A DNA stretch of 64,000 nucleotides from Gaertneriomyces semiglobifer (taxonomy: Eukaryota > Chytridiomycota > Chytridiomycetes > Spizellomycetales > Spizellomycetaceae), in the NCBI GenBank assembly GCA_025558075.1, contig JAHLKF010000003.1, positions 1 to 64,000 on the forward strand, written 5' to 3'. Every line of letters starts with the position of its first letter. Position 1 is the stretch's first letter. Shown piece after piece: positions 12,225-41,140 of this stretch. The notes beneath the pieces were generated by a model that saw nothing but the letters and a program-made list of their open reading frames with translations, had not been told where the DNA came from and ran no database searches. The translations under genes were made by a program, and so were the position numbers.

Positions 12225-13767
12225 ATGGAGCAGGAAAAGAAACCCGGTGTCGATGCTGTAAGTTTTGGTGTCCCAATTATGGCAGATTGCTTATGTTGAT
12301 ACAGTTGCTTTCGTAGTTCGCAGCTATGCAGCGGAACATCAAGCGGATGGCCATTGCATGGTCATACTGTTTTGCTTATGGATTGTTGCTGTTAGTATCG
12401 CTATTTATGCAGCGGTGAATACCAATGGGTTTAAATCTGGAGAAGCTCTTGGCGCAGGAGTCGTAACGAGTGCAAAGCTGGCGTCCGGCGCCGTTGCTTC
12501 AGCAAATCTGTTGCCGAATGCTGTTGTCGCCCAGCATATTGCCGCCAATGCCGTGACTGAACAGAAAATAGCTGCCGGTGCGGTGACTGAAGGCAAGATC
12601 GCCGTTGGTGCGGTGACTGGGTCGCAAATTGCTGACGGGTCGGTGGATTCGACGCACCTTCTTAACAATGCGGTGGCTGAACAGAAGATCGTCGACCGTG
12701 CAGTGACTGGACCGAAAATTGCCAGCGATGCGGTGGATTCGATCCACATTGCTGACAATGCCGTTATTGAAGAGAAGATCGGCATCGGTGCGGTGACTGG
12801 GCCGAAGATTGCTGATAGATCGGTGGATTCGATCCACATTGCTGACAATGCCGTTATTGAAGAGAAGATTGCCAACGATGCAGTGACTGGAGACAAGATT
12901 CACAACGATGCAGTGACTGAAGAGAAGATTGCCAACGATGCAGTGACTGGAGACAAGATTCACAACGATGCAGTGACTGGGTCGAAAATTGCCACCGATG
13001 CCGTGACAAACGTCAAGATTGCCAACGATGCAGTGACTGAAGAGAAGATTGCTAACGATGCAGTGACTGAAGAGAAGATTGCTAACGATGCAGTGACTGT
13101 AGACAAGATTGCCAACGGTGAGGTGACTGGACGGAAAATCGCTGACAGATCGGTGACTAGCAAGAAGATTGGCAACAGTGCGGTGAATCGGTGGAAGATT
13201 GCTGAGGACGCGGTGCTTACGGAGCACATTGTTAACAATGCTGTTAAGGAACCAAAGATCGCCATCGGTGCGGTGACTGGGCCGAAAATTGCCGACGGTG
13301 CGGTGACAGACGCCAAAATTGCGAATGAAGTTATAACTCCCGCCAAGCTGAGCACTACAGCTGATTGGCCGGCTTGGATAGAGAGCAACATGCCGCCTGG
13401 TAACGGCAACCTGGGAAATACAGGCTTGACATACGAATATTCTGGCTGGCATATAGGCGCATCTCCCTTAAACGAGTGTTCTCTGCAATCTCGAGCGGGA
13501 GGTGGAATTTTTAGATCTTGTGTCCGAGTCTCCGCGGGTTTGTATCAAGTCTTCCTAGACCCCATTTTTGCCGGAATCTATCAGTTGGTGGAACTCAAAC
13601 CATTGGTTACGCCGCGTAACGGCGAGTTTGAGATGCCAACGATGTGTGTGGTACTAGAGACTAGTGTGGGAAGCAATTACGTTAGGATCCGCTGTTTTGG
13701 AGTGGATGGCACTCCTGCTGATACTGACGGCTCAGTTCTGCTGATGGCGGCTGAGCCGACTGATTAA
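12225..13767 (+). CDS. decapeptide-repeat membrane protein, copy 1 (30 repeats, ancestral start broken)
   Basis: The main frame runs from an ATG at 12358 to 13767 (469 residues). It has a membrane helix starting VILFCLWIVAVSIAIYA, thirty tandem ten-residue units of the form NDAVTEEKIA, and a C-terminal domain with four cysteines (ECSL, RSCVR, TMCVV, IRCFG) ending in DADGS-like TDGSVLLM. Alignment with copies 3 and 4 shows an ancestral first exon at 12225-12257 (MEQEKKPGVDA), a 59-nt GT-AG intron and exon 2 from 12317. One base is missing near 12357 relative to the paralogues, so the spliced product would be out of frame. Translation from 12358 would give a protein starting at the helix without the basic lead. 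It may be a functional short form or an early pseudogene. Its function is unknown; an extracellular fibre or adhesin is a guess from the architecture. Confidence 0.7.
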
Positions 13768-14155
13768 CGGTATAGATGTAGTGGGCTGCAGTAGTCTCTT
13801 TACACCAATGATGTGGACCTGCATGACGGGCGAAACGGCCAAAATAATATAACATTTTCACACTGTGTTGTTTGTTCGCATTTGGTCTCCTGGCCGGAAG
13901 AAGATGCGATTTGGCCTGAAAACGCGCCAGACATTGACAGCTTGGAAAATGCACTGAAGGTCAATGGTTCAGTTGCGGTTTCGATTGAGGAGTGTTTACA
14001 CATCCTGGAATACAGTTCAGGGCTCTCGATCTCGCTTCGGCTGCCGTCAGTGGACAATTTCGAATGACGCGTGCGAAAATGGGAGCAGATCTACATCTTG
14101 CGTGGGCGTCCACCGTCCTTTACAATCAATATCGGGTCCGAAAGCCATAACCACA
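13768..14155 (+). repeat. conserved 3' flank of copy 1 and right direct repeat
   Basis: At about 13801-13842 the sequence ccaatgatgtggacctgcat and the following bases match the 3' flanks of copies 2 and 3, so the duplicated unit includes downstream sequence. From 13917 to 14040 lies the right copy of the direct repeat whose left copy is at 11072-11224. Nothing else is seen before the cupin gene. Confidence 0.75.
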
Positions 14156-14683
14156 ATGTCCTCCAAACCCACCCACCTCCACATCTCACCTTCCTCTCAC
14201 TCTCAACTGGCCACCTTACGTCCACACCCTTTGAACGCCGATGCACAGCGCCTGACCTTGTCTCTGGGAGACTCTGCTGGCCTGACTAATCTGGGAATCC
14301 ACCACGTCCGCCTAGCACCCAATACCGAAAGCACTGTCCTGCACCGCCATATCCACGACGAAGAATGGATTTACATCCTCTCGGGCCGTGGTGTCGCGCT
14401 CATCGAGAAGGAGCGACCCGATGATAAGTATGAAGGACAGTATGATGTTGAAGTGGAGGAAATTCCTATTGGTCCCAATGATTTCTTGGGTTTCAAGCGC
14501 AGTGGACGGGCGCATAGCCTGCGATGTGTGGGCGGTGAAGAATTGGTTTATTTGTGTGGAGGCACACGGAACAAGATGGATGTCGTGGAGTACCCTAACG
14601 CGCGCAAAGTCTTGAAGATGGAGAGACAAGGGAGTGAGCGACGAATGGATTATTCGGATGTCCCGCCTGCAACCAAGGAATGA
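14156..14683 (+). CDS. cupin-domain protein
   Basis: The protein has 175 residues in a single exon. A conserved cupin motif 1 is visible around residues 62-80 (HRHIHDEEWIYILSGRG: two His, a Glu and a Gly, the usual metal-binding set). Motif 2 is seen in PNDFLGFKRSGRAHSL. The ATG at 14156 was chosen because upstream in-frame codons belong to the direct repeat at 13917-14040 and are not conserved. Single-domain cupins of this type occur in bacteria and fungi and bind a metal, but the substrate cannot be told. It borders the first island, so transfer or rearrangement is possible. Confidence 0.85.
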   Translation: MSSKPTHLHISPSSHSQLATLRPHPLNADAQRLTLSLGDSAGLTNLGIHHVRLAPNTESTVLHRHIHDEEWIYILSGRGVALIEKERPDDKYEGQYDVEVEEIPIGPNDFLGFKRSGRAHSLRCVGGEELVYLCGGTRNKMDVVEYPNARKVLKMERQGSERRMDYSDVPPATKE

Positions 14684-14729
14684 ACACGCGTGCTTTTGTG
14701 GGCTTAGGAGGGTTACTTTTTATCAATGG

Positions 14730-17525
14730 TTATAATGACAATGAAGGATCTGCACTTGGCATCTCGAGATAATCATCCTTCAATTCATTTATCAGTAGAC
14801 TTAGCGGTTTCTTGGGTTTGCTCCATCGTTCCATTGCCATTCGTTTTTCATTAGCTAATAAGCGTTTCGCAACTTGGGTCCAGCTGTGACAATGCGCACT
14901 ACAAAATATCAGTATGTCAGCGCGCTCCTCGGTGCATTTTGAGCATCAAATAGTGTTCTGAAACTTACAGTACTAAATCTCGTAATTCAACGCCTTGTTC
15001 GGTGAGAGTGTTGATATCCTGCGCGTCACGTAGCAGATTGGTGTTGAACGCTTGCAGTTCGGTCTCGAGCAGCGTGTAGGCATGATCCCATGTTTCGTCT
15101 GGGCGAACAGAGACGCTTCCACCTTGAACGAGGAGGTTGATCATCCAGCTTATAAGGGATGTGTGGAGTTTCATGTTTTCTGGTAACAGCAGAGCGATGC
15201 CACAATGTTAGCTCATGAAAAGGAAAGAAAGGCAACCGTTAATATGAATTGCGTACCTTCATTCCGAATGTCGGAATCCGTGTTGAGTTGGTCCATCAGC
15301 CTGGACAAGAAGTTCTCTACGTGTAGTGGGATCTTGTGTTGTTCCTTCTCCGTCGTATCAGATAGCGTTTCTATTGAGCACCGAAACGCCATGAACGTGA
15401 GAAGGGCAATTCAGAGAAAGGTGCGAGATAACAACACAAGCCATACCAATCAAATTGTTCTTGATTTGCAAACTCCATGCTGTCAATGTTTCCATTAAGG
15501 TCGTTCGTTCAGAAGACGCCAGCGGTTTCTCCACATCACGTGCCCCATACGTCGTATATCGATCCTCCAGCTGATTCTGAAGACTAATCATATTCCCCGC
15601 AATTCCATCTTCACCGGTAACTCTCAACATTAGTTTATCCAACCAATCCCGAACCTCAATGGCTATCCGCCCCAGAAGCTCCGTTAATGGCTCGTACTCT
15701 TTTCCGTTCGTGTTACGTTCGTTACGATGAAGCAGTCGGTATCCTTCTTCCACCCAAACATTTGTCTCTTTTCGGATTTGCGTGATATCTTCCTGAAAAG
15801 CCAGATCCTTGTCACTTGTGAATCGCGTCGCTACAGTTGTTATTTGATCCACCCACTTGCGTAAATGGTCTGCAATGGATTTGACGTCGTGTACATGAAA
15901 CACCTTCAATAGCGGGTGCTCGGCCTCGATTGCTTCAGTGGGCTCACTCACATCCAGATTCTTCAGCACGAGTTCCATGTCCCGCTGCATTTTCGCCAAC
16001 ACATCAATATTGTGTCGGTCCTCTTCCACAACCGTTTGCGACAGCTTAATCAGCTTTTTTCGCCATTCGTCAATCTTCTTTTCCACCGACCGCAAATGGA
16101 CGTCATGTGTCGTACTAATCGTCACTATTATATGACTTGTCGCTCTCATTCTACGATGTTCATATTTCTGCAACAGCATGAGCTCCGCAAACCCATGTTC
16201 CTGTCCTATCCGCAGGGCGAGACTCGTCGCTGCATCAATCCATACCCTCTTCTCCTGTTCAGCCTGTCGAACCGCTTCCTCCAACCGATCCCGCTGCATG
16301 CGATACAACTTGTGATACTCTTCCAAAATCTCCCCAGTATTATCCGACTGCGTCAGCACGGTGGACAGTTTCTCATGTGCATCCTGCGCCTGTTTGGTCA
16401 CTTCATAATCGTGTTTCCGGATAATCTCCAGCTCCTTGACCATTTCAGTGACCATTTCTTTACTCCTGAGCAACTCTTGCGTCAGTCGCCGATTGAGTTT
16501 GCGCTGGGCAAGCAACTCGGTATGCAAATGTTTCACGTGCTTGGGTATCTTTGTGAACATGTTCGCATACCGATTCCGGATCTCTGCGAGGACTTCGCCG
16601 CGTTCAATCATGTTTACCGTCACTTGTCGGATGAGTTCTTGGAAAACCGCGTCGTAGATCTTTTGTTCTTCAGTTATGATGGCAAGAAAAGCGTGCATTT
16701 CTGTTGGGTACGGTTGGTCCACCTCCGCCCCGATTTCCTTGATTAGTTTCTCGGCGGTGTGCTTGAGAAGTGCAACGTCCTTTCGCGTAGTCGGCCGCAT
16801 GGTGGCCCCAGAGAGGTGCGATACATCCGAATCTAACGACTATCCAAGAATAAAAACCAATTGAGAAACAAAAAAAGTCAGCAAACTTAATTCTGGAACC
16901 CTCATGAACGTGTTGAATCGCTCACCGAAGTGCTTTGAGCCAACGACACCATATGCATCTTTTCCGGATTCACCGAGACCCGTCTGCCAGACTCATCCCG
17001 CCCTTTTCCACCTCCCAAGGACTGCACGGATCTCATACTTCGCGTGTCGCTTAACAGATTGGTCTTTCCTGCAGGTTGCACCCGCGATACATCCTCGTCG
17101 GCTTCGTACACAAAGGCTAACTCATCATTCACGTCCGGCACCTCGCCACCGGACGTTGGGGATCGTTGTCGATTCGGAGACCGTTGTCTTCCGCGGCCCT
17201 CGGGCGAACGTTGTCTGCTCGCTGGTGTTATTTGACGCGCGCCAGATCGTGTGGAAGTAGCAGTATACGCCGGAGACCGTGACCGAGGTGGTTGAGTGGC
17301 AACAGCGACATTGGTAGAAGGCCGGTTGGACGGTGAGCCGCCGCCGGTGGGGATGGCATCAAGTGTGGCGGTGGAATTGTATTCGGTCAAAGGATCCGCA
17401 GATGTTGCGGACGGCGCAAATCCTTTTCGAGCTGCTGAGGATCTTTTGGAAGCAGGAGCTGGCTTCGGGCCGTCTGTTCTCAGTTTATTCAAGTCAGAAA
17501 GGAGTGCTGCTGGTACAAATGCCAT
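14730..17525 (-). CDS. AXDND1: axonemal dynein light chain domain-containing protein 1 homologue
   Basis: Spliced complement(join(14730..14898, 14969..15179, 15257..15370, 15447..16839, 16926..17525)), 828 residues; all phases close. Exon 1 is a disordered Ser/Arg/Pro-rich region. Exon 2 holds the family core: FQELIRQVTVNMIERGEVL, then an R-x-R-Y segment and a long coiled coil (LLAQRKLNRRLTQELL), matching the axonemal dynein light-chain-like region of AXDND1. Further exons continue a helical protein. AXDND1 is linked to sperm flagellum assembly in animals; here a role in zoospore flagella is inferred. Only 201 nt separate its ATG from the stop of the upstream ribosomal protein gene on the same strand, so its promoter must be short or overlap that 3' UTR. 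Confidence 0.88.
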
Positions 17526-17726
17526 AATGACGGAAATGTGAGGGCCGGCTGGAAAATCACTGGACAAAAACACTGGGCGCGAAGTGACGCGAAGATCGGA
17601 GATTTACGTAATCTCGTTAACAGTGCGAAGATGTTTCTGCTGAGTTTAACAAAATGGACATGAGCTACCAGCACAGCAACAGAACGAAAGTGAAGCACCG
17701 AGATAGTTTCGCAACAATGTCATATT

Positions 17727-18111
17727 TTAAGCGACAAGTTCAACCTTGCCACCAGCAGCAACAATCTTCTCCTCTGCCTTCCTGCTCACGAAGCGAGCCT
17801 TGACAATGAAGGGAATGTTGGGGAGACGGCCCTTTCCAAGAACCTTGGCGTAACCCTACATGTCTCACGTCAATACCACAAAATGCATCAAGTAGGCGGT
17901 TAACAAAGTACATACGTGGCTGAGGACATCGATGACAGGGACGGGGCCGGTGGGGTTGGCAGCAACCTTGGCGCGAGCCTCCTCACCAACAAGGGACCAG
18001 AGACGGTCAATGTTGACGACGGGAGCCCAGTACTGCTGGTGCGTCAAGTGGAAGTGACGCATACCGACCTTTCCGAAGTAACCAGGGTGGTACATGTCCA
18101 TGTTGATACGA

Positions 18112-18143
<32 letters not shown>

Positions 18144-18497
18144 TCCGGGATGCTTGCGGTGCTTGCCGACACGACCGTGACCGGCGGACACGTCTATAAA
18201 CATGCTCGTTAGTCATATGTTGGTCAAATGCAATTTTGAATGATGTTTTGATACGTACGACCGCGCTTCTTCCTGTTCTTGTGAAGGTGGGTAGGCTACA
18301 AAGATTCGACTGTTAGACAATGGCTTCTCCATATGGCACGCTCGCTGCTGCACGAAACGTGCTCTCCTATGAGGCAGATCTCCCAAAGCGGTTCCACTTC
18401 CACCCATCAACAAATCTGCAAGCGCCTACAGCATAGCTTACACCGCCCCCTCATGTTTCTTAGCACGAAAAACCATTTGCCACCATCCACTCACCAT
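17727..18497 (-). CDS. RPL28: 60S ribosomal protein uL15 (L27a/L28)
   Basis: Spliced complement(join(17727..17855, 17916..18193, 18259..18295, 18495..18497)), 148 residues, the family length. The first intron begins directly after the ATG (ATG|GTGAGT), a layout common in fungal ribosomal protein genes. The joined protein begins [19 protein letters not shown] and contains [39 protein letters not shown] and the C-terminal [18 protein letters not shown]. It is a structural protein of the large ribosomal subunit. The 60-199 nt introns make it one of the most intron-dense genes here for its size. Confidence 0.97.
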
Positions 18498-18887
18498 GTT
18501 GACTTAGTGAACCAGCGAGAAACGACTGTTCTGCTATGTGGTTGATGTGGCCAAAAACAAAGTTCCTCTCCGCCGAAACCCTTTTTCTGACCTGCAGTGA
18601 AAGCCCTAACCCTTGACGTGCAGTTATCAATCACAACGTCTTAAATCAACCCAACCAAGTGCAGATAGTACTTCTTGCAAGGACAATTATTAACGAGCGT
18701 TTTTCGTACCTCGTCCAAAAGTATCCACTAGGTACCAAGTAGATTGATAAAAATAAAAAGATGTACATGTCCAATTTTCCATTCGCCCACATCACAGTAT
18801 AATAAACAAACTCGGTGCTAAAACCTTTTTCGTTCGCCACTGCCATTCCTCCACGTCACAGACCCAAAACCTGATAATTCAGCTAAT
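18498..18887. other. intergenic region
   Basis: This 390-nt stretch holds the promoter of the ribosomal protein gene and the 3' end of the acyl-CoA dehydrogenase gene. 'aaccctaaccctt'-like words occur near 18575-18615, but not as a telomeric array. Nothing else is seen. Confidence 0.5.
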
Positions 18888-20246
18888 CTAATACACAGCG
18901 CCAGCCTTTGCCATGTCCAACACTCCTCGTGAAATGACCAATCGCTGAATCTGTGACGTTCCTTCATAGATCATGAAAATCTTGGCGTCACGCATTAATT
19001 TCTCTACCGGGTATTCGGTGTTGAATCCATTGCCTCCAAAAATTTGTACTGCATCTGCCGCGTTCTTGTTCGCCACCTCCGAAGCATACGCCTTGGCGAT
19101 AGATGCCCAGTACGTGTTGCGCTTGCCTTGGTCACGCAACCATGCGGCTTTCCAGACAAGGTTACGTGAAGCCTCCACACCAATGGCCATGTCAGCGAGC
19201 ATGAAAGCGACGGCTTGGTGGTCCGCGATGGGCCGTCCCATGGTCTTGCGCTCAAGAGAGTACTTGGCGGCTTCATCCAAGGCACGACGGGCGAGACCGA
19301 CGGCGCCAGCAGCCACAAGAGGACGTGTAATATCGAAAGCACCCATGGCAATCTTGAATCCAGCGCCAACCTCTCCGAGAACGTTCTCTTCCGGCACGAC
19401 GACATCTTCGAAAGTGAGGCCGCGAGTGTCAGACGCACGCTGACCCATGTTCAACTCCTTTTTGCCAACAGTGATACCGGGTGTGTTGCCGTCCACGATG
19501 AATCCGGTAAAGGCCTTTCCTGTTCCTGCTTTATCGTCTGTGCGGGCAAGGACAAAGTACCAGTTGGCCTTTCCACCATTGGTGATCCACATCTTGGAGC
19601 CGTTTATGACCCACTTGTCGCCCTTCTTCACAGCGCGAGTCTGAAGGCCAGCGACGTCAGAACCTGCACCAGGCTCCGTGACACCATAAGCACACATTAA
19701 AGGCTCCTCTGTCATGCGGCCAAGATACTTCTTCTTCTGGAAATCGTTACCAGCAATAATGACGGGGGCTTGAGCCAGGCCATTTGCTTCGGCAGCGGTC
19801 TGGATACCTGTACATCCGTAGGCCATTTCTTCGGTGACAATGGCGCAGTCCAAAACACCCAAACCCATACCACCGCACTCGGCCGGGATGTGCAAGTTCA
19901 TGAGACCGACTTCCCATGCTTTCTTCAAGATTTCGGTAGGGTATTCTCCGGTACGATCATGGTGCGCAGCATTTGGAGTGATCTCCTTTTCAGTGAACTT
20001 GCGGGCAAGGTCTTGCAACTCTCTTTGCTCCTCGGTCAGACTAAAGCCGATACCCTCAAACGAGCTCGCTTCTGATGCGAAGCCACGGCTTGCCGTCTGC
20101 AAAAGGGAATGACTTTAACTACTCGTCTCGGTTAATCATTCCACCGAACATGGCAAGCATACCTTCCTGGCAACGGACAGGCCTGAAGACCTAGCGTATG
20201 CACCAGCCGAGGCAGCAGATCTGATGAGGCAGCGAGAGGCGAACAT
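18888..20246 (-). CDS. ACADM: medium-chain acyl-CoA dehydrogenase, mitochondrial
   Basis: Spliced complement(join(18888..20096, 20163..20246)), 430 residues. Exon 1 ([20 protein letters not shown]) is Arg/Ser/Ala-rich without acids, a typical mitochondrial presequence, and is joined in phase 0 to the mature enzyme. Signatures include [14 protein letters not shown] and [17 protein letters not shown] for FAD and substrate binding. The catalytic Glu lies in [11 protein letters not shown] and the C-terminal FAD-binding helix in [10 protein letters not shown]. It carries out the first dehydrogenation of mitochondrial beta-oxidation. The YEGTSQ context and length fit ACADM better than isovaleryl or short-chain members, though chain preference is inferred. 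It is divergent with CEP164. Confidence 0.93.
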
Positions 20247-21043
20247 GTTTATATTTTTGAGCTAGGCCAAAGGAGAAAAGAAAGCGTGGACAGGACGGAG
20301 GGACCGGGGAAACCAAGGTCTGCTCCCCTTTTTATACGCGCGGACGAACGCGGAAGAGGGGAATTTGCCTCTCGAGTTGAGTGAATTGCCCATATGCCAG
20401 TCATCATTTGTTAATAATAACACATTCAGTTATTGATGGGAATCAACCGATCATCTCTGGTCACGGGATCGCGTGTCGCGTCGCGTGGCGCCGAATTTAC
20501 CGAGCCGCGTTCTCACAGCCCTTGCCTCTCAAATGCATCCAGGGTTGTTGCGACAATTCAAGCAAGGTTCAGATGCAGCGGACGGAGATACTTTCAAAGT
20601 TGCAGCTACACATGTGGCCTCTCACTATGTGATTGGCCATTCGCTAACTGCGGTAGCTATCGTTTGGCTCCGTGTGAACAGGTCCCTCGCGTGAATGATG
20701 TGTTTTGGATAAACCCAACGCCACAGGTTTCTCAGAAGTTGTTGCGCGGAAGCTGTTAGATAGACGCTGGTTGTATGTTTTCTGAGAAAGCGCTTGTAAG
20801 TTTGTAGATCTCCATGTCCTCCGCAGGTCAACAGAACTGTGCTTGTCATCAACGCGACAGTCGCGTCAAAACACGGTCGTTGACTCGTTGGCACCGTGTT
20901 AGAAGAAAGGTATATTTACACTCGGAACACTTTCAGCTACCAGCGTCGGGAAGGGAGGACTGGAAACGTTCTCGCAAATTTCTTCCTCTGCTGTCGAAGG
21001 CTGTTGAAATCTTTTCTCTGCCCGCGCGCGCCGTGAGCTAAAA
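20247..21043. other. divergent intergenic region (ACADM / CEP164)
   Basis: About 800 nt between two divergently transcribed genes, so it must hold both promoters. No gene or clear element is recognised. Confidence 0.5.
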
Positions 21044-23977: not shown

Positions 23978-24482
23978 TGTCCATGGGCACTCGGAAAGAC
24001 TTCCCGATATTGGAAGTATTTGTTTTAGAAGAAGCTCAAGCAGAGAGCATGTACAGCACAAACAGATGCCAATGCATTCGGTAATTTTTTAAATAGATGG
24101 TATTATATGCAATTCAGCACCCAATACTATGCGGACGGCTGTCTTGGTTGCTAACTCTAAACGGTTGTGGATGGCTCATAAACAGCAATGACACGCATGT
24201 CCCAGGCGCACTGAAGGAATGGTTTCTCAGCCGTAGGTGTCGTCGTTCATCATTGGCGAGCACGTACAGAAAAAGGATATCATGAAATTAAAGGCTCCCG
24301 GCAATAGCTGGAGTCGGTGGTATGAGCTGGCGTCATCGGCAAAAGTCCGACACAGCGCCCCGGCAATAGTGAACCGCTTTACACTGCCTTCTTTATTTAT
24401 CCAGCAGCTAGAAACGGATGGCAAGCAAGGATGCCGTTGCCACCTTTACTCGATGGTTACAACCAGCAGCTTTCATCGACAA
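23978..24482. other. convergent intergenic region
   Basis: Lies between the 3' ends of CEP164 and the dsRNA-binding protein gene. Nothing recognisable is seen. Confidence 0.5.
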
Positions 24483-31246: not shown

Positions 31247-31460
31247 TATATCAAAAAAAGCTTTGACAGTGGTACTCTACTCGCTGCGTTGGATGTGGAA
31301 TGTCAGTGGGTGCAGGACAAGTTCACGCGCGTCATGTACTAACGTTGAAAGGTGAGTGCACCAGTGACAGCCTGCACCTTTTTGGAGCCATCCACAAATA
31401 AGGAATGATCATGTTCAATGCGCTTTAGGAACCTCACATCTATTGCCATAAGTATTGCTG
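31247..31460. other. island sequence
   Basis: Mostly unrecognised. At about 31388-31433 the words ccatccacaaataaggaatg and atcatgttcaatgc recur near 32616-32657, marking another dispersed repeat. Confidence 0.5.
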
Positions 31461-31700
31461 GGAAATTTAAAGTTATGTACTTTCTTCAAGAAGTACGGGC
31501 AATACATTCTCAGTTATGGGGGAAGGGTCATCACCACACCATTGGAATCCCTCAGAGAACCTGCACTGCTCCGACCGATGATTGCTTGCGAGTCCGGTCC
31601 GGAGGCAGTTGCGTCGTATAAAACATGTGATGGGAAGAGTATCATCCACACTGGCGGGGTCGATACCCGCAAAATCCAGGGGCGCATCATACGTAGCCGT
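31461..31700 (-). repeat. segmental repeat with coding-like relic, copy A
   Basis: It aligns with 36580-36765, sharing gtactttcttc, gggcaatac, caccattgg, atccctcaga and gatcatacg. On the minus strand both copies read a similar peptide (YDAPLDFAGIDPASVDD here, YDPALIFDDIDPASLDE there), with several synonymous differences. In both cases the segment lies just downstream of a broken repeat-protein copy. Confidence 0.7.
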
Positions 31701-31779
31701 TACGAGAAGGGGCAGTGTTGATAGAGTCGAGTGCGTTTCCAGCAGATACTGCCCTACCGAAACTCGAGTGCACGCCCCA

Positions 31780-31962
31780 AGGAGACCTCCAGTTGCCATC
31801 CATAAGCAAAGAGGATGGCTATGGCAATGAACATGCGCTTGATTCTCCGCTGAATAGCGCCCATCTAGGCAAACAAACCAGATCTCATGAATACGTGATT
31901 GTTTGCCAACGTGAAAGAATGGAACCTACCCCATCTGTGCTAGCAGTCTTGACTTTCTCCAT
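31780..31962 (-). pseudogene. decapeptide-repeat membrane protein, copy 5 (5' relic)
   Basis: Exon 1 (31930-31962, MEKVKTASTDG) and an intron with a GTAGGT donor and CTAG acceptor are preserved. The start of exon 2 (ATG at 31864, MGAIQRRIKRMFIAIAIL) is recognisable against copy 2. The frame is lost inside the membrane helix, where TTCTG became TTTG, and similarity ends near 31785. No decapeptide repeats follow. The promoter with catataaag (32041-32049) and the leader are still well conserved with copy 2. Confidence 0.8.
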
Positions 31963-32040
31963 GTTGAACTACTGACGACTTCACGTACAACGATACGATG
32001 AAGGCTGAAGCCCGACAGTGCTATCGTCCCAACTGACCCC

Positions 32041-32049
32041 CTTTATATG
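32041..32049 (-). promoter_or_regulatory. TATA element of copy 5 relic
   Basis: On the minus strand catataaag lies about 80 nt before the start at 31962, the same spacing as in copy 2. Confidence 0.5.
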
Positions 32050-32079
32050 AAGAAAATAGGTGGTTCACTTCGCTGGGGA

Positions 32080-32300
32080 TGGCGACAATGGTCGCATTCC
32101 CATTTCAGAGACATAAAACGCTCGTGGGCTTGCTTTTTCTAGGAGCCATGGTGTGTTATAGAATGTTGTTTAACGGTGCTGTTCCATATTCACCGGGAGG
32201 ACGACAAAGTGCGCCTGGCTGTGTTCGAAAGAGTTGACCGTCATTGCACCGAACCAGGCGCATCGGCAAGACCAGCAAGGACACGTTGGCTATCGGGTAC
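32080..32300. repeat. dispersed island repeat, unit a
   Basis: Begins with gtcgcattcccatttcagag and runs through ggagccatggtgtgttata, the gtgctgttccatattcaccg block and an acaaagtgcgcctggctgtg block. The same order recurs at 32705-32985, 33040-33480 and 35935-36360, and in part at 37060-37330. Confidence 0.7.
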
Positions 32301-32497
32301 TTACCGGCTACTCGAAGCCTTTACAATATCACCTTCCTCGCTGCCCTTGGGTTCTGTCTGCACGCGTCATGTCGGCAGATCTTATAAAAGCAACTCGGCA
32401 ACGCTTTCAACAGTGTACACCCCTAAATTCATGCGTTGCATGTCCACCGAGCATTCCTTTCGCAAGCGAAGATTCTGAGGCAGTTGGTGGAGTAATT

Positions 32498-32612
32498 GAC
32501 CTCAGGACATTCCGCAAGTTTGTCGGTGGTGACAGATAAATCTGCAACTTTGGGAGTAGCAAGGGCACTGGGGGCGATCTTGTCAGTAGAGACGGCATCA
32601 GAGTATTCTGGA
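32498..32612 (-). pseudogene. decapeptide-repeat relic, copy 7 (three units)
   Basis: The minus strand reads DAVSTDKIAPSALATPKVAD and then LSVTTDKLA, three units of the ten-residue pattern, followed by a remnant of the end cap. No membrane helix or C-terminal domain is attached. Confidence 0.65.
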
Positions 32613-32704
32613 CCCATCCACAAGTAGGAATGATCATGTTCAATGCTCTAGGAACCTAGGCACAAGTCTAGCTGGGTAATGTAAACTTAAGCATTTTTCT
32701 TTGT

Positions 32705-32985
32705 AAACAGCATTTGTTTTGGAGCCATCGTCCATCAAACGATATTGTTTACAGTGCTGTGCCATATTCACCGGGATGGAAGACAAAGGATCTGGCTGGG
32801 TTCAAAAGTGCAGACAGTCGTTGCAAAGGCCAAACCAGGCGAGTCTCGACCGTAAAGTTAAAACAGTGGTCGTCCATTGTCGTGACATGGCGGGTCTAGG
32901 TGAAGGAGGACGATCGGAAGCTCAAAAGAGCTCAAGTTTTTTTCCTAATTGCGGGCCGAAAATAAACTGTTAGTGAATGTGCAGA
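32705..32985. repeat. dispersed island repeat, unit b
   Basis: Contains ttttggagccatcgtccatc, gatattgtttacag, gccatattcaccggga, and a gtggtcgtccattgtcgtga block. It ends in gccgaaaataaactgttagt. All have counterparts in the other units. Confidence 0.7.
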
Positions 32986-33039
32986 GGCTATTGATCGACA
33001 TGGCATCGGCAAGACCGCCAACGTTGACTATGGTGCGGG

Positions 33040-33480
33040 AAAAGGGACCATCGTGCGTCAAAGGATATTGTTTACGGTGGTGCCATTTCAGTGTTCACAA
33101 GAAGCTTCCTGATACTCAGGCTGAGCGTCAATGCATTTCAGAAACCTAATCGTTCGTCGGCTTTTGGTTTGGAGCCATCGTGCGTCAAAGGATATATTGT
33201 TTACGGTTTGCGGTTTGCCGCCGCGTTAATGGTAGCATTCCCATTTCACAGATACTTAAAAATGCTTTACTGCCTATTAGAGCCATTGAACGCAAAGGAT
33301 ACCTTTGCATATTCACCAGAGGAAGACAAGGTGTGCCCGACTGCGTTCGAAAAGGCTATAACTGTCGGTGCCTCGGGTCTCAGCTGTGATGTCCGTGCAG
33401 TTAAAGCTGTGGTCGTCCATTGTCATGACAAGGACGGGTTTTTTTCTTGAATGTGCGCCGGAAATAAACTGTCAATGCGC
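33040..33480. repeat. dispersed island repeat, units c and d
   Basis: Two copies of catcgtgcgtcaaaggata lie at about 33053 and 33177. They are followed by cattcccatttcacagatac, the gcatattcaccagaggaaga block and the gtggtcgtccattgtcatga block, then ggaaataaactgtcaatgcg. Units are partly nested, and no single frame stays open across them. Confidence 0.7.
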
Positions 33481-34614
33481 CTTGCAACCACCAAGCATGA
33501 ATTGAAGTGAAGGAGTATCCGTGCCGACCGCCCAACCGCCAAGTGGGAAGACAAAAAGAGGCAGTTTCTTGGATTCTTAGCCAGAGCCAGAGCGTCCGGA
33601 AGGGTCAACCGTGCAAAACTTGCGAACCCTCTATGACAGTTGGGACTTGGTCAGCGTCGCTCAGCTGGAGTGGTTGAGTAAGTTCTTTGGGTGCGCTCAT
33701 TAGTGTATGGAGTGTTGTAGGGATGTTAGAAAGCAAATGGAGAACACCGTTTGCTCTCAGTGCTTTCCGCCATGCACGTCTCGTCGATCTACCACAACAA
33801 GAGGGACATGTAAGGCCCAGCGCTCGTACATGTACACAGGGGGTGTTCGAGCTGTAGGTGACTGCCGTACGATCTTGCATCCCACCCGATGCTATCGCCG
33901 ATCAATTAATTGGTCATTAAGATAACCACCAGAAAAGAAGCTCCGGGTGAAATATCAGTGCTTCTGTAGCATTGGCCCCGTAGACTGCTTGCGGTACATG
34001 TACAGGTCCTATGAGGTAGTTGACCGTCATGGAGAGAAGGTGGTTGCATTTCCCAAATTGATTAGAGCAGCCAAACTGTGACAATCTCAGATCGGGCTGA
34101 AAGTATAAGCCCAGTTACAATCTTGGTCCAGTCATCGTCGATCATCACCTTCATCAAAGCCGGGGACGGCAAGCGACACGGGGGCATAAGCCTAAATGGA
34201 ACACAGAATCGGATATAAACTCAATAACGCCAAGCCCGTGAGAAAACAATATTTGCAACATTTCTCGGCCTTCGCGAACCAGCGTATCCTGAAATGCAAC
34301 TCGGGAAAAGGGAGGCGACTTAGGCGTGAAACCTAAGGGAAACCAATTTGCCTGATCTTGTACAATGTGATTATCTGAAAGTCGACAACAACGCTTAACG
34401 TTATTACTGAGTAATCTACAAGAAGCAGCGCTTGATTCAACATGATTACATTTTACTGTAAACATACGCCGAGTCCGCCAATGCTGCTCAAAGAACGGGA
34501 GGACTGTGTGTGAATTTCTGCAAGTCGCTCATGACCCCTCATACAAGCTCCAATGTCGAGGGTTCATGCGTTTAGCGCAAACATGTATATATATATGGTA
34601 TTCAATTCGTATTT
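33481..34614. other. island sequence with no recognised gene
   Basis: Short open frames on both strands, the longest being 103 codons on the minus strand ending at 34154, show no family resemblance. An AT dinucleotide run lies near 34586-34596. Confidence 0.5.
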
Positions 34615-34687
34615 GTATTTGCCGTTTCCGTCATGCAAGTCCACATCATTGGTATACGACGGCCACGGCAGGCACTACGCGTACGAA
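34615..34687 (-). repeat. conserved 3' flank of copy 2
   Basis: tatttgccgtttccgtcatg followed by a conserved tggtata..gacggc block matches 37838-37901, the 3' flank of copy 3, and in reverse 13801-13842, the 3' flank of copy 1. It is probably the 3' UTR of the family. Confidence 0.75.
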
Positions 34688-35790
34688 CTAGGGTAAACCA
34701 TCATCAGGGTAAACCATCACCATAATGGAACCCTCAGCATCAGCAACGTGACCTTCTAAATCATAACAGCGGATCTCAAAGACCGCGGTTGGCCCAGTAG
34801 CCGCATCTGTCACACACAGACGTGGTGAAGCATTTCTAATACGAGGAGTAATCAATACCTCTACCATCGTGCCGCTCAATATATAACTATGAGCTGCGTT
34901 CAGGGTGAATTCATAGTGACCGACGCCGCGTCTGCCACATGTGTGGAAAATGCGTACACTGCCAGGTTGGTGCGTAAGTATGCAGTAACCATCGTCCGCC
35001 CAGCGTACAATTTCGAAAAGGGTAGGAGATGCGTTGCTCTGTATCCAAGTCGGCCAGTCAGCTGTAAGTGCAGTGCTCATTTTCTCAGGTGTTATAACTC
35101 CATCAGCAATCTTGACGTTTGTCACCGCATCGTCGGCAATCTTGTCTTCAGTCACCGCATCGTCGGCAATCTTGTCTTCAGTCACTGCTCCGTTGAGGAT
35201 CTTGCCTTCATTCACTGCACTGGGGCCAATTTTGGCGGTGGTCACTGCTTCGTTGCCAATTTTGGCGTTGATCACCGCACCGTCAGCAATGTGCGTCGAA
35301 TCCACCGAATCCACAGCAATTTTCAACCCAGTCACCGCACCGTTGCCGATCTTGCCTTCAGTCACTGCATCGTTGACAATCTTGTCTTCGGTGACCGCGC
35401 TGTCAAGAATGTGCGTCGAATCCACCGAATCCACAGCAATTTTCGGCCCAGTCACTGCACTGGCGGAAATATGTTCGGTGATCACTGCATTCGGAGACAG
35501 ATTGATCGACGCGACGGCATGAGAAGCCAGCTTTGTACTCGTTACGACTCCTTCACCCAGAGCTTCTCCAGATTTTAACAAGCCGGTATTGGCGATGGCG
35601 GCAATGGCGATACCGGCAGTTGCAATCCATAAACAGAAGAGGATAGCCATGCCAATGAACATGCGCCTCATGCTCCGGTGGATAGCGTCCATCTAGGTAA
35701 ACAAACCAGATCTCATAAGTATGTGATCATTTATCAATGTGAAAGAACGGAACCCACCCCATCAGAGCTAGCTCTTTTAGCATTCTCCAT
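34688..35790 (-). CDS. decapeptide-repeat membrane protein, copy 2 (16 repeats, intact)
   Basis: Spliced complement(join(34688..35692, 35758..35790)), 345 residues. Exon 1 gives MENAKRASSDG; the 65-nt intron (GTGGGT...CTAG) is phase 0. Exon 2 starts MDAIHRSMRRMF, then a transmembrane helix (AILFCLWIATAGIAIAAIAN). Sixteen decapeptides follow, between an opening cap (GEGVVTSTKLA) and a closing cap (DGVITPEKMS). The C-terminal domain of about 120 residues has four cysteines (GYCIL, HTCGR, RLCVT, IRCYD) and ends DAEGSIMVM. The basic N-side and the helix imply a signal anchor with repeats and the Cys-rich domain outside the cell. No fungal family is known to me. It is the best-preserved member together with copy 3. 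Confidence 0.85.
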
Positions 35791-35867
35791 GTTGAACTGC
35801 TGACGACTTCAGGCAAAACGACAAGTTGAAGGTCGAGGACCGACAGTGCTATCGTCGCAACTGACTC

Positions 35868-35877
35868 CTTTTATAGG
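35868..35877 (-). promoter_or_regulatory. TATA box of copy 2
   Basis: cctataaaag on the minus strand, about 80 nt before the ATG at 35790; copy 5 has catataaag at the matching place. Confidence 0.6.
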
Positions 35878-35934
35878 AAGGAAGCCGACAGTTCACTTCA
35901 TATCTTCCACGAGCCCGCCGCCCGGTTGCGGATC

Positions 35935-36360
35935 TGGAGGATGAGTGGCACTTGTCGCACTCCCATTTCAGAAACATAAAAAGCTTCGTTTGCTTTGTCT
36001 TTTTGGAGCCATCGTGCCTCAAAAGACGTTGTTTCTGGTGCCATTCCATGTTGTTTGCCGCCACGGTTGTGATCCAGGCTATGCCTTGACGGTAGAATTA
36101 CCATTTCATGTGCCTAAAATGGTTTAGTTGCCTATTAGAGCCATTGGACCAAAGGATACTGTGTGCGATCCTGTCCATATTCACCAGAGGAAGACAAAGT
36201 GTGCCTGACTGCGTTCAAAATGATAACTGGCCACCCCACTCCCAGGCGGATCTCGGCCGTGGAGTTAAAGCTGTGGTCGTCCATTGTCATGACAAAGACG
36301 GCTATTTTCTTTGAATCCGAAAATAAACTGTTGGTGAACAGGAAGGTGCAGGCGACGGCA
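35935..36360. repeat. dispersed island repeat, unit e
   Basis: Contains ctcccatttcagaaacataa, tttttggagccatcgtgcct, atattcaccagaggaagaca and ctgtggtcgtccattgtcat, ending in ccgaaaataaactgttggtg. It is the longest unit of the family. Confidence 0.7.
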
Positions 36361-36579
36361 GATCGGGCATGAGTGTCAATTTTAAGGACAAGTTCAGGCG
36401 CGTATTGTCAAGTTCCAACTGGGAAGAAGCGGGCAAAGGTTGCTCGAGGATGGGCTCTGCTAGCTGCTTGTGGACGAAAAGCTACATCTCTTCCACTCGT
36501 CCTCAAATGCTCTTATTATTATGATCACCCTCTTTGTACGATACCTCACACCAGTGCTAAAGTCTCTTGTTAGGTCCCG
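36361..36579. other. island sequence
   Basis: No gene or repeat is recognised in this short stretch. Confidence 0.4.
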
Positions 36580-36765
36580 TAAATTTATCTGTACTTTTTC
36601 CACAAACTACAGGCAATACAAACTCAATTATGAGAACGAGGTGCTCACTTCACCATTGGTATCCCTCAGATTTCCTGCGCTGTTCTGACAAAGGATTTTT
36701 TGATTTCATCAAGGCTTGCAGGGTCGATATCATCAAATATCAGTGCCGGATCATACGATTGCGGC
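36580..36765 (-). repeat. segmental repeat with coding-like relic, copy B
   Basis: Partner of 31461-31700. On the minus strand an open stretch reads VADHVAELGPQSYDPALIF and continues through IDPASLDE to a stop. The gene of origin is unknown. Confidence 0.65.
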
Positions 36766-36783
36766 CCAAGTTCAGCAACATGG

Positions 36784-36990
36784 TCAGCTACCCATCGTCC
36801 CAACTCGCATTGGGTGCAGGTTGGTCGGGAGTGATTGTACCATCGGCAATTTTAGCCGAGGTAACAGGGCCATCCGCAAGTTTGTCAGTAGTGACTGCGT
36901 CGTCCGCAGCGCCAGCTCCCGCTCCATATTCACCGCGTTCGGAGCCAGGTTTGTTGATGTGACGGCGCCCCATTTCGTATTCACCAGCAG
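36784..36990 (-). pseudogene. decapeptide-repeat relic, copy 6 (frameshifted)
   Basis: One minus-strand frame reads WGAVTSTNLAPNAV, the opening-cap region of the family. After a frameshift another frame reads DDAVTTDKLADGPVTSAKIA followed by DGTITPD, two repeats and the closing cap. It has no membrane helix and no C-terminal domain. Confidence 0.7.
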
Positions 36991-37235
36991 CTTTCCCAGT
37001 CAAATACTGAATGTTCGTCTTCGCAAGGTTGCGATCGTCCATGGTAGCGCTCCCGTTTTTAAAACCTGAATGTTTGACCTGAATGGCTTTTCGAGCCATT
37101 GGACGAAGAAGGGCATTGTACGCCGTGCCATATTGTATTCACCAGCAGCTTTCCCACGCAACAACTGAACCGCACCGTTGCGATCTTGGCTGAGCGGTAA
37201 CACTAGCACACCGTTTCGAAAACTTACAACGCCAT
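36974..37235. repeat. tandem duplication of ~150 bp
   Basis: gtattcaccagcagctttcc recurs at about 36977 and 37136. It is followed in both copies by a related gttgcgatc...ggtagc/ggtaac...ccgttt segment. On the minus strand both read GKAAGEY, which hints at decayed coding sequence. Confidence 0.65.
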
Positions 37236-37837
37236 TAAACGTAATGGATATTATTTATGGTACCATACTTACCAGAAGCACCAGAGGAAGGACAACGTGT
37301 GCCTGAAAGCGATCAAAACAGTTATAACTGTCGTCGCAAAGACACCAGACGGGGACAGCCGCTGTGCGCCGAAAATGTGAATACGTAGATGAGCGGACAC
37401 GCTAGTCTGGTAACAATAAGGTGGACATTTTTTCAAGATTTACATGAATTCCCACAAGCCTACTACCCTAATTTCGCACCATTATACGATGCTATGGTCA
37501 ACAATTTTGGTGGGATGAACAAGAAGCCACAAGGGTTTTGTTTTCGCTTACTTGCCTGGCTATGAACAAGCGGTCATCAATTGCTAGTAAGGTTGACTCG
37601 TCTTTCTCAATGTGAACACATCCGACATCAAAAGGCATATCTTAGCTGCTGGTGAAGGCGATTCGTAATACTCGCCTTCGAGGATTGTTCTGCTCAAAGT
37701 CCCTGCCAAGGGGCGTGGTGCAATAACACATAATGTACTTTGGCCAGGTGCCTAAGGCCTGGCAGTGATAGTCGACACTGGGTATTGATAGTGGTAATAC
37801 CATTTGTATATTGTACTCGTATTTATTTGTATGTGTA
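37236..37837. other. island sequence with a partial dispersed-repeat unit
   Basis: About 37258-37370 resembles the central part of the dispersed repeat (ccagaggaaggacaacgtgt). The rest has no recognised feature. Confidence 0.5.
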
Positions 37838-37901
37838 TTTGCCGTTTCCGTCATGCAAGTTCTCATCAATGGTATAAGACGGCTACAGCAGGCACTGCGA
37901 A
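37838..37901 (-). repeat. conserved 3' flank of copy 3
   Basis: Matches the flank of copy 2 (34615-34687) with few changes, again starting directly at the stop codon of the gene. Confidence 0.75.
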
Positions 37902-39122
37902 TTACACCACATTGTTATACATCAGCATGAAGGAACCGTCAGCATCGGCAGGCATACCAGTTACTACATCAAAACAGCGAATCACAAAGGCCGTGCCCGG
38001 AGGCGCAAGTAGCCCAGAAGTTTCTGTCGCACACACTACTGGATGGCCAGCCGCGGGACCGTCGCTACGAGGAGTAACCAACACCTCTTTCCTGATGCCG
38101 TTTGCGAGATACATAAAATCTAGGCTCGCTTCGAATCCATAGTGACCAGGTGAGACCACGGTACAGGAGCTGAGAAGCACCTCGCCCGCTTGAGGCACAA
38201 CCAAACAGGAAGGAACACTACCACTATTGTCCAGTGTCCAGCCTGCAACTTGGACACGGTTAGGAGATGCGTTGCTCTTGCTCTGAATCCAAGTCGGCCA
38301 ATCAGCTGTAGGATCAGCGCTCATTTTCTCAGGAGTTATAGCTCCATCCACAATCTTGTCGTTTGTCACTGCTCCGTTGAGGATCTTGCCTTCAGTCACT
38401 GCATCGTCGGCAATCTTGTATTCAGTCACTGCTCCGTTGAGGATCTTGTATGCAGTCACTGCTCCGTCGTCAATTTTGGCGGTGGTCACTGCTCCGTTGA
38501 GGATCTTGTCTTCAGTCACTGCTCCGTTGAGGATCTTGCCTTCATTCACTGCACTGGGGCCAATTTTGGCGGTGGTCACTGCTTCGTTGCCAATTTTGGC
38601 GTTGGTCACCGCACCGTCAGCAATGTGCGTCGTATCCACCGACCCGATAGCAATTTTCAACCCAGTCACCGCACCGCTGCCGATTTTGGACCCAGTCACC
38701 GCATTGTCAGCTATTTTCTGCTCAGTGACAGCATTGTCGAGAATGTGCGTCGAATCCACCGAATCCACAGCAATTTTCGGCCCAGTCACTGCACTGGCAG
38801 AAATATGTTCGGTGCCCACTGCATTCGGAGACAGATTGATTGACGCGACGGCATGAGAAGCCAGCTTCGTACTCGTTACGACTCCTTCACCCAAAGCTTC
38901 TCCAGATTTTAACAAGCCGGTATTGGCGATGGCGGCAATGGCGATGCCGGCCGTTGCAATCCACAAGCAGAAGAGGATGGTAATGGCAATGAACATGCGC
39001 CTCATGCTCCGCTCCAAAGCTGCGAACTGCAAAGGAAAATTGATCAACATCCAGAAGCCATCTGCAATAAGTGGGGCACCAAGACTTACACCATCGGCGC
39101 TGGGTTTCTTCTGCTGCTCCAT
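37902..39122 (-). CDS. decapeptide-repeat membrane protein, copy 3 (19 repeats, intact)
   Basis: Spliced complement(join(37902..39026, 39090..39122)), 385 residues. The 63-nt intron (GTAAGT...TTTGCAG) is a multiple of three and lacks a stop, so an unspliced form would also be open and 21 residues longer. Exon 1 is MEQQKKPSADG; exon 2 starts FAALERSMRRMF, then the helix TILFCLWIATAGIAIAAIAN. Nineteen decapeptides follow, and a C-terminal domain with the four family cysteines (PSCLV, SSCTV, VVCAT, IRCFD) ends in PADADGSFMLM. Its promoter has a clear catataaa. Repeat number and order differ from copy 2, consistent with expansion and contraction. Function unknown; surface fibre or attachment is inferred from architecture. 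Confidence 0.85.
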   Translation of the reverse strand: MEQQKKPSADGVSLGAPLIADGFWMLINFPLQFAALERSMRRMFIAITILFCLWIATAGIAIAAIANTGLLKSGEALGEGVVTSTKLASHAVASINLSPNAVGTEHISASAVTGPKIAVDSVDSTHILDNAVTEQKIADNAVTGSKIGSGAVTGLKIAIGSVDTTHIADGAVTNAKIGNEAVTTAKIGPSAVNEGKILNGAVTEDKILNGAVTTAKIDDGAVTAYKILNGAVTEYKIADDAVTEGKILNGAVTNDKIVDGAITPEKMSADPTADWPTWIQSKSNASPNRVQVAGWTLDNSGSVPSCLVVPQAGEVLLSSCTVVSPGHYGFEASLDFMYLANGIRKEVLVTPRSDGPAAGHPVVCATETSGLLAPPGTAFVIRCFDVVTGMPADADGSFMLMYNNVV

Positions 39123-39560
39123 GATGGTATCTCTCCGCGCTGCTTTACGATCTGAAACTCTGCAGCTTGACCGAGTCTTTCTCTAAAATGGCTCGGTCTG
39201 GAGAGAACTCGACCCACTTTATATGCGGGGAAGGTCTCGCGAGAGCCGGCCTGCCAACAACATCCCGATTCACAAATAGCTCTCATTCATCGTAGGTACT
39301 CCACACCCCGCCTCCTGGAACCCTCAAGAGGTCACTTCTCAGTTTGTTAGCCACCCACCATCACTCGCAGCAACGAAAGATAAGACATTTTTAGCAGTGC
39401 CATGAAGCGCAAGAATGAAAACAAGGATTTTCGAAATGTCCGGAAAACTCTTGTCACTCCCTTTCAAAACAAAAGCTCAATGCATGGTCGACATTCTAAA
39501 ATCCATGGCCATGATGACAATGCTCCCTGCATCCATCTACATGTATATATAGACATGCAG
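39123..39560 (-). repeat. upstream region of copy 3, duplicated at 40693-41140
   Basis: This 5' leader and promoter aligns with 40693-41140: for example, tctccgcgctgctttacgat matches tctgcgcgctgctctacgat. The gctctcattcatcgtaggta block, the tcactcgcagcaa block and the caatgcatggtcga block also recur. Copies 3 and 4 are therefore a tandem duplication of about 1.6 kb. A TATA-like catataaa lies at 39218-39225 (minus). Confidence 0.8.
39218..39225 (-). promoter_or_regulatory. TATA box of copy 3
   Basis: catataaa on the minus strand, about 100 nt before the ATG, embedded in sequence aligned with the copy 1 promoter. Confidence 0.55.
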
Positions 39561-39887
39561 CAAAAGACAGCCCGCCGATCCTAGTGCGCTATGCCGACCT
39601 TGCTGAGATCATGGCCTTGTCTTGCGCTTCCATTGTTGGAATCGAACCATTGGGCAGAATATAGAACAGACATGAGGCGCGTCTGCCGCCAACGCCACCA
39701 GTGGTGTCAGCGGGTCGTGTTTGTTTGTTCAGACAGCCAGTGAGAACAAAGCATGTCAATGTACGCAGAAGCTGTTGGCTTACTATGATAGTATGAATTG
39801 ACGTGGACGGGATGGTATCAGTTTCTACCATTTGCACAAACCTAAGGCGTATCCATCGGACATCATATATATTTGATATGCAACCCG
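39561..39887. other. spacer between copies 3 and 4
   Basis: No gene is recognised. Some similarity to 41040-41140 continues at the left edge. Confidence 0.4.
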
Positions 39888-40692
39888 CTAAGAACTACGG
39901 GGGTACAAGCACCAAGGTTGAGGGCTAATCATCAGCAGAACTGAGCCGTCAGCATTAGCAAGGATTGCCATCCAATCCAAAACAACGGATCCCAACGTAC
40001 TAGCTTCCCGCACCATTCCCAACTGCCAAACATATCCTTGGGCTATCAGCAAAGCCGACATGCGGCGTTGATCATTACTTGGAGATCCACGCTGTTCCAT
40101 ATAGCGGCAAAATGGGGGTCTAGGAAGGCTTGATAGACACCGGGGGAGACTCAGTTACAGGACAGAAAAATCCTCTCCCGCCTGAGGTTGCAGCGAACAC
40201 GTGTGTGCGTGCAACCCGGGTATGCCAGGCTGCAAATTCGTAATTCTCGTCTGTATTCCCTGTTACCAGCGGGCATGTTGTTCTGTACCCAATCAGCTGT
40301 GCTCAGTTTGGCGGGAGTGATAGCTGCATCCGCAACCTTGACCGCACCGCTGGCAATCTTCTGTTCAGTCACTGCACAGGCGGAACTATGATCGGAGACC
40401 ACTGCATTCGGTGACAGATTCACCGAAGCAACGGCGCCGAACGCCAGCTTTGCACTGGTTACGACTCCTGCGTCAAGAACTTTCCCAGATTTCAACAAGC
40501 CGGTATTCACCACCGCATGGATAGCGATACTAACAGTGACAATCCATTAGCAAAACAGTGTGGCCACGGCAATGGCCATTCGCTTGATGTTCCGCTGCAT
40601 AGCTGCGAACAATAAAGGAAAACTGATCAACAACCACAAGCAATCTGCGATAGTTGCACCATGACTTACACCATCCGCGCTGGCTGCTCCAT
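39888..40692 (-). pseudogene. decapeptide-repeat membrane protein, copy 4 (broken)
   Basis: The whole gene outline is present but disabled. Exon 1 (from 40692) lacks 11 bases and is out of frame. The acceptor CAG is changed. A TAA replaces Leu in the membrane helix (40547-40549, LFC then stop). Only about five repeats remain (PNAVVSDH, CAVTEQKIAS, AAITPAKLS). The C-terminal domain is frameshifted, with ADGSVLLM recognisable near 39930. It is a non-functional tandem copy of copy 3. Confidence 0.85.
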
Positions 40693-41140
40693 GGCGATAT
40701 CTCTGCGCGCTGCTCTACGATCTGAAATTCTGCAGCTTTACCGAGCCGTTCTAAGGAGGGCTCAACGCGAAAGCATGCCGCTACCAACATCATCCCGGTA
40801 CACGAATAGCTCCCGTTCATCAAGGTATCGTTTTGGCATGCGTGCTCCACACCCCGCCTCCCGTAACCATCCCGGCACACGAATAGAGCTCGTTCATCAG
40901 AGATACTACACAGTCTGGTAGCCACCCAGCATCACTCGCAGCAAAGAAAGACTTTTTTTGGTTCTTATCATAGTGCCATGATGCCCCAAGAATGGAACAA
41001 GGACATTTCCAAGTGTCCCGCAACTTCTTATCTCTCAATGCATGGTCGATGTCCTAATCCCGGTGTCCCGAGGACAAGATGCTTCTGCAATTTGTTCATC
41101 CAGGCAATCAGAAAAAGGGCAGTCTGCCGAATCCAGTACA
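40693..41140 (-). repeat. upstream region of copy 4
   Basis: Partner of 39123-39560, with two of the ~75-bp units also found upstream of copy 1. No TATA element remains at the expected place. Confidence 0.75.

Follow-up and report, generated by a model that had tools for sequence, protein, structure and literature searches.

A chytrid gene family with phage-type fibre shafts, predicted membrane anchors and a divergent four-cysteine head

Does a chytrid fungus carry fibres of the phage type on its own membrane? Among the tools with which bacterial viruses bind to cells, phage fibres are the classic modular and fast-evolving kind. To our knowledge, eukaryotic use of a phage fibre is known mainly from MYRF, which keeps the trimer/self-cleavage domain, and the surface adhesion proteins of saprotrophic chytrid zoospores are poorly known. 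The question is raised by a family of decapeptide-repeat proteins in Gaertneriomyces semiglobifer, whose genus belongs to the Spizellomycetales (Chytridiomycota). The family lies in the first 64 kb (the window) of contig C3, JAHLKF010000003.1, in a genome of 20.9 Mb and 66 contigs. On balance we favour the view that its members are phage-type fibres anchored in the membrane of the chytrid, each ending in a binding head that diversifies and having an ectodomain probably acquired by transfer; such fibres are probably trimeric.

Copies 2 and 3, both on the minus strand, are complete: each has an 11-codon exon 1, an intron, a hydrophobic helix, a shaft, a cap and a head. In copy 3, exon 1 (MEQQKKPSADG; 39090..39122) and exon 2 (37902..39026) yield a spliced protein of 385 residues, with a hydrophobic anchor located by hydropathy (MFIAITILFCLWIATAGIAIAAIA; 38925..38996), a shaft at 38343..38882 and cap plus head at 37905..38342. 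The predicted intron between them (GTAAGT...GCAG, 63 nucleotides; 39027..39089) has no in-frame stop. With this intron, the N-terminus obtained by translating the unspliced copy 3 open reading frame (ORF) is partly intronic (39089-39027). Copy 2 comprises exon 1 (MENAKRASSDG; 35758..35790), a predicted 65-nucleotide intron with a weak donor, GTGGGT (35693..35757), and an exon 2 that runs to the stop (34688..35692) and encodes the anchor, the shaft (35099..35548) and the cap and head (34691..35098). The intron is conserved in position after codon 11. Copy 1, on the plus strand, has a comparable exon 1 (MEQEKKPGVDA; 12225..12257) and predicted intron (GTAAGT...GTAG, 59 nucleotides; 12258..12316), but once spliced this exon is one base out of the LFCLWI frame. 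Splicing from the ATG at 12225 gives 44 residues and then a stop. The long frame, MVILFCLWI... to the stop (12358..13767; 469 residues), opens at ATG 12358 and encodes anchor, shaft (12460..13329) and cap plus head (13330..13764); exon 1 and spliced exon 2 are both one base off. A single-base assembly error is a possible cause of the offset. RNA folding shows no signal at the copy 1 start (z 0.25).

The original prediction saw seven copies with one architecture. Family sequence is indeed present at all seven places, at or very near where it had been put, but the architecture is that of copies 1-3 only. Two of the seven are intact (copies 2 and 3), one is open but N-terminally frame-shifted (copy 1) and four are relics. 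LFCLWI, ITPxK(L/M)S, the four head cysteines and AD(A/T)(D/E)GS, all predicted as family marks, occur in each of copies 1-3. One strong N-terminal hydrophobic helix was computed, as anticipated; the predicted basic N-terminus holds for copies 2 and 3 and fails for copy 1, whose open frame does not include it. The copy 3 anchor has a hydropathy of 2.48 over 19 residues, and the first 22 residues of the protein include 5 basic and 3 acidic ones. Copies 2 and 3 show the type II signal-anchor feature of a strong hydrophobic helix with a basic N-side. Where a phage fibre would have a virion-attachment domain, the N-terminus consists of exon 1 and the hydrophobic helix. At E<=1, Pfam left copies 2 and 3 without any match and gave copy 1 none that passed its threshold (E 0.056, 0.19). 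Read from the DNA, the N-terminus is eukaryotic in kind, combining an intron with a membrane anchor.

The shaft behind this anchor is built of tandem decapeptides, with 29, 15 and 18 perfect-period units counted back from the cap in copies 1, 2 and 3. Within the consensus A-V-T-x-x-K-I-A-x-x, position 2 is V and position 7 is I or L in all 62 units, and position 6 is K in 47 of them. The proposed kinship with fibre-type shafts of phages and bacteria was supported by PHROG tail-fibre families that match all three copies (892, 28766 and 21412; E 1.9e-80 to 1.3e-18). These families keep the same decapeptide register (AVTxxKIADG), and in them too a shaft is followed by a terminal domain. They differ from the chytrid proteins in their N-terminus, which binds the virion, whereas the chytrid one carries a membrane anchor behind a spliceosomal intron, and in lacking a counterpart that we could find by sequence to the head with its four conserved cysteines. 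The copy 3 shaft alone matches phrog_892 at E 5e-40; permuting its residues removes every match at E<=1, and reversing them leaves a best value of 2e-3. Against these controls the likeness is far from chance. A protein search gave E<=1e-3 for 1756 of 8000 scored candidates. Among the best 120 listed, most are nameless or 'hypothetical protein', and the names include phage tail protein, phage-related tail fibre protein, trimeric autotransporter and Ignavibacteria protein. A sequence search of the PDB yielded a single solved match, 9eg4_H ('orf16'), which aligns through the shaft (5.9e-7).

In a single-chain model the head is a predicted beta-sandwich; confidence in the model is moderate, and its Z only slightly exceeds the best value that models without a match typically reach. 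Fold comparisons of this model match the C-terminal domain of the phiAB6 tailspike (PDB 5js4, 5jsd) and, in BFVD, the fibre heads of tailed phages. They back the earlier suggestion that the proteins end in a domain comparable to that of phage fibres, and support a sandwich of the type found at the tips of phage fibres and tailspikes. Other virus coat and TNF-like proteins are also among the matches, as is a mimivirus protein (rank 36, prob 0.92). Of the head columns in predicted strands 15 of 66 are invariant, against 4 of 54 in loops. The phiAB6 domain shares 11% identity with the head. It differs in that the chytrid head has four cysteines and no beta-helix depolymerase body, and its helix follows strand 4, whereas that of phiAB6 lies between strands 5 and 6. 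Shaft and head each point, independently, to tailed-phage fibres. The phage-like stalk and tip together suggest a borrowed fibre serving as a fungal surface hook.

At the level of sequence, relatives of the head proved elusive. A single-region search found only the head itself among 202 candidates; it missed P0003, the chytrid relative described below, and is thus insensitive. Scanning prokaryote and viral contigs with a head alignment revealed no relative. The sole locus of a second prokaryote scan (Thauera propionica, L102) was dropped, its short ADWPTWI match lying in an ORF that we read as unrelated. Translated searches (tblastn) of phages and plasmids returned only E >= 1, and none of 72 repeat-bearing ORFs from loci L022-L102 matches the head (best E 0.77). 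Hidden Markov model matches to P0114, P0065, P0076 and P0096 (E 0.001-0.003) were discounted; in P0114 and P0065, the two whose alignments were inspected, the best match lies in an N-terminal region. Among 118 tail regions compared by hhalign, P0080 and P0010 matched best. A small phage alignment gave E 0.0044 (prob 7.9%), but a larger phage head profile scored no better than column shuffles. The match to phage heads is co-linear, with 8 of 200 shuffles scoring as high, and sequence homology to phage heads is therefore not claimed. Several phage fibre heads (L069, 4376-4747, and L105-L112) have in common a conserved domain, WINFNGTG..NVSSI.DNG.GDYTVNWDTDFA, which in L069 sits behind the same type of decapeptide shaft; of two examples tested, one has a sub-threshold Pfam match, to Gp53-like_C (E 0.022).

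Divergence within the family was compared with three paralogues and one further protein to hand. Identity between copies 2 and 3 was scored in 60-column steps. Exon 1 and the intron give 0.60 and 0.41; through anchor and shaft, seven of ten steps reach 0.90-1.00 (the rest 0.80, 0.73 and 0.84); the cap and early head give 0.85 and 0.83, and the remaining head 0.53-0.67, so that the drop starts after the cap. Past the stop, identity is 0.88 and then 0.68. With blastn, anchor and shaft align as one tract (557 bases, 89.6% identity) that stops at the extra units of copy 3. The 5' 100 bases of copy 3 are identical to copy 1 at 85 of 99 positions and to copy 2 at 46 of 91, which makes copy 3 a mosaic. 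Ratios of nonsynonymous to synonymous divergence (dN/dS) rise from anchor through shaft to head in every pair: 0.12, 0.43 and 1.01 for copies 2-3; 0.23, 0.45 and 0.76 for copies 1-3; and 0.22, 0.64 and 0.76 for copies 1-2. The nonsynonymous excess in the head has Fisher p values of 8e-4, 4e-3 and 0.02 in the three pairs. Synonymous divergence between copies 2 and 3 is also raised in the head (0.48 vs 0.20 and 0.31 elsewhere), so recombination or conversion of the flanks contributes, and positive selection is not proven. In simulated neutral decay from a common head, both frames stayed open in 317 of 20,000 runs and all four cysteines survived in both heads in 229 of 20,000.

From these features we infer the following arrangement. 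Three chains would assemble along the shaft, the N-terminus remaining cytoplasmic as a signal anchor, and the heads would be held off the cell or spore surface, where they could bind a glycan or another surface ligand. As protein, the head is the part that evolves most rapidly, whereas anchor and shaft are conserved, or homogenised among copies through recombination; the locus would thus present a small set of different binding tips, all carried by the same stalk. The ectodomain probably came from a phage, a prophage-bearing bacterium or a large DNA virus. Its acquisition would predate the split of the two Gaertneriomyces lineages, with intron gain and duplication afterwards. We advance more tentatively, as less probable than its opposite, the fuller proposal that the fungus domesticated a phage-type fibre in its entirety, with both the shaft and the receptor-binding head, placed it on its own membrane and runs it as a diversifying repertoire, with anchor and shaft homogenised, heads diverging and shafts of 12-29 units, like host-range phage fibres, perhaps for zoospore adhesion or bacterial recognition.

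Three known systems offer partial parallels. The phi29 head fibre gp8.5 is trimeric, with a repetitive helix-turn-helix supercoiled stem (PMC6542822); this stem is a possible model, by analogy, for the shaft. In the PDB sequence search, the shaft-bearing profile matched only 9eg4 and no chain of gp8.5. MYRF, a metazoan membrane transcription factor, is reported to employ the trimer domain of a phage tailspike (PMC3742443, PMC8326128) and is in this respect a precedent among eukaryotic membrane proteins. It differs in having self-cleaving chaperone and DNA-binding domains, neither of which is matched by Pfam in chytrid copies 1-3; the Peptidase S74/ICA self-cleaving domain has no Pfam match in these copies or in the three heads. 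The third parallel is with bacterial trimeric autotransporter adhesins of the YadA type: two shaft relatives, P0010 (PF05662) and P0059 (PF03895), carry YadA-type Pfam domains. In the chytrid proteins no outer-membrane barrel was found (YadA barrel absent from Pfam matches of copies 1-3 at E<=1 and of the three heads at E<=10), and anchoring is opposite, by an N-terminal helix. Among the open-access titles listed on Gaertneriomyces, on chytrid transfer, adhesion or giant viruses, on decapeptide tail fibres or on phage-derived eukaryotic genes, none describes such a family; searches on 9EG4 and on TNF-like phage heads yielded nothing useful. If the membrane-fibre reading is true, the family would stand beside MYRF as another case of co-option, the second and the more literal of the two, with shaft and head kept, anchor and intron gained and the head diversified, and would supply concrete candidate genes for chytrid surface-adhesion biology.

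Could the fibre instead be secreted, its hydrophobic stretch a cleaved signal peptide and the product released or cross-linked into wall or matrix? We read AIAAIA-NTG as resembling a signal peptidase site and the openings of two other shaft proteins, P0124 and P0200, as signal-peptide-like, and copy 1 as it stands starts with MVILFCLWI, without a basic tail. The hydrophobic run, however, is long for a signal peptide (~24 residues) and in copies 2 and 3 is preceded by a 21-residue N-terminus with five basic residues. A signal anchor therefore fits better, and we think secretion rather unlikely. We are equally doubtful that the likeness to phages is analogous rather than inherited, a Val/Ile-spaced decapeptide shaft, expanded locally, and an ordinary small beta-sandwich having arisen in chytrids. 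Low-information repeats converge easily, the head has no sequence relative outside Gaertneriomyces in the searches made, and its fold matches extend to other virus coat and TNF-like proteins; yet the shaft holds the V-T-x-x-K-I-A register of phage fibres, and the two modules lead separately to tailed-phage fibre proteins.

Less probable still is a dying family, mostly pseudogenes under relaxed constraint and without present function. The four relics of seven, the shifted N-terminus of copy 1, the weak splice donor of copy 2 and a head dN/dS of ~1 would all suit decay. Two copies are nonetheless open, as are the shaft and head of a relative in another isolate, JEL0708, and the anchor dN/dS of 0.12 and the retained four cysteines and strand cores speak of constraint. 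It is very improbable, finally, that the fibre belongs to a virus or virus-like particle from an integrated element and not to the cell surface. The phage-type shaft and head and the mimivirus protein among the fold matches would be expected of such a fibre, but the neighbouring genes, the eukaryotic intron, the membrane anchor and a syntenic member in JEL0708 argue otherwise.

The surroundings of the family fit a chytrid host. Six of nine neighbouring ORFs scanned have Pfam matches (cupin, axonemal dynein light chain, acyl-CoA dehydrogenase, double-stranded RNA-binding domain and ERCC4 nuclease; a BCAS3 match is below Pfam's cut-off), a profile that fits a flagellated eukaryote, and no viral hallmark was found among the nine. 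The closest protein among the best 120 listed is HDU85_000227 (P0003) of Gaertneriomyces sp. JEL0708, the sole full-length relative found, with shaft and head open and 12 shaft units in its in-frame part. Its residues 1-140 are 92% identical to a gene in the window at 41337-41753. The P0003 model joins this neighbour to the adjoining family member, so the locus is syntenic with JEL0708. These matches and the axonemal dynein light chain among the neighbouring ORFs uphold the assignment to a fungal host. By our reading, P0003 is spliced at the site that we assign to the intron, in another reading frame; the public model seems to merge the neighbour gene, an upstream region and the off-frame N-terminus of the family member, and its annotation probably needs splitting. 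Two lists, each of the best 120 matches, give no sign that the family is broadly orthologous to any characterised fungal protein of the cell interior: the sole fungal protein named in them is a Gaertneriomyces hypothetical protein, and lower-ranked or undatabased fungal members are possible. Genome searches with copies 1, 2 and 3, the head of copy 1, the ORF at 31476-31799 and the DNA at 36560-37330 found no family match outside the window, these whole-genome counts being lower bounds. As far as sequence searches reach, the family has been seen only in Gaertneriomyces. Contig C3 (~1.35 Mb) ends 12-41 kb away from the cluster; by eye, no telomere repeat was seen in its first 1500 bases, but a subtelomeric position is possible.

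The four relics are all on the minus strand. One retains exon 1, an intron at the position conserved in the family (GTAGGT...TAG) and the start of exon 2, and loses frame in the anchor (31780..31962). At 32498..32612 a reading of the translation gives ~3 degenerate shaft units. A third has a few shaft units and a cap-like ITPDQ without the four-cysteine head (36784..36990). Copy 4 (39888..40692) is a pseudogene with a TAA inside LFC-WI, a few units, the cap ITPAKLS and a broken head; no other family member lies closer to the gene at 41337-41753, and beside that gene JEL0708 carries an open relative. Relic regions 31473-31799 (-) and 36580-36790 (-) have in common a downstream sequence that is not the four-cysteine head (YDAPLDF..IDPASVDD and YDPALIF..IDPASLDE); 31468-31583 and 36580-36697 are 73% identical as DNA over 118 nucleotides. 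It is possibly a second, lost head type, and genome searches showed no further copy of it. Diverged duplicate blocks of the second island (71-75%; 33223-33472/36083-36331, 32719-32887/36135-36294 and 32134-32260/32713-32841) are probably remnants of more tandem copies or of their 5' regions. Copy 1 and the DNA upstream of it duplicate the copy 4 pseudogene region in inverted orientation and diverged form (11634-12096/40779-41116 and 13268-13746/39930-40377; 71-81%). A direct repeat of 69 bases (88%) on either side of the copy 1 island, at 11150-11218 and 13960-14028, may mark the borders of a duplicated segment.

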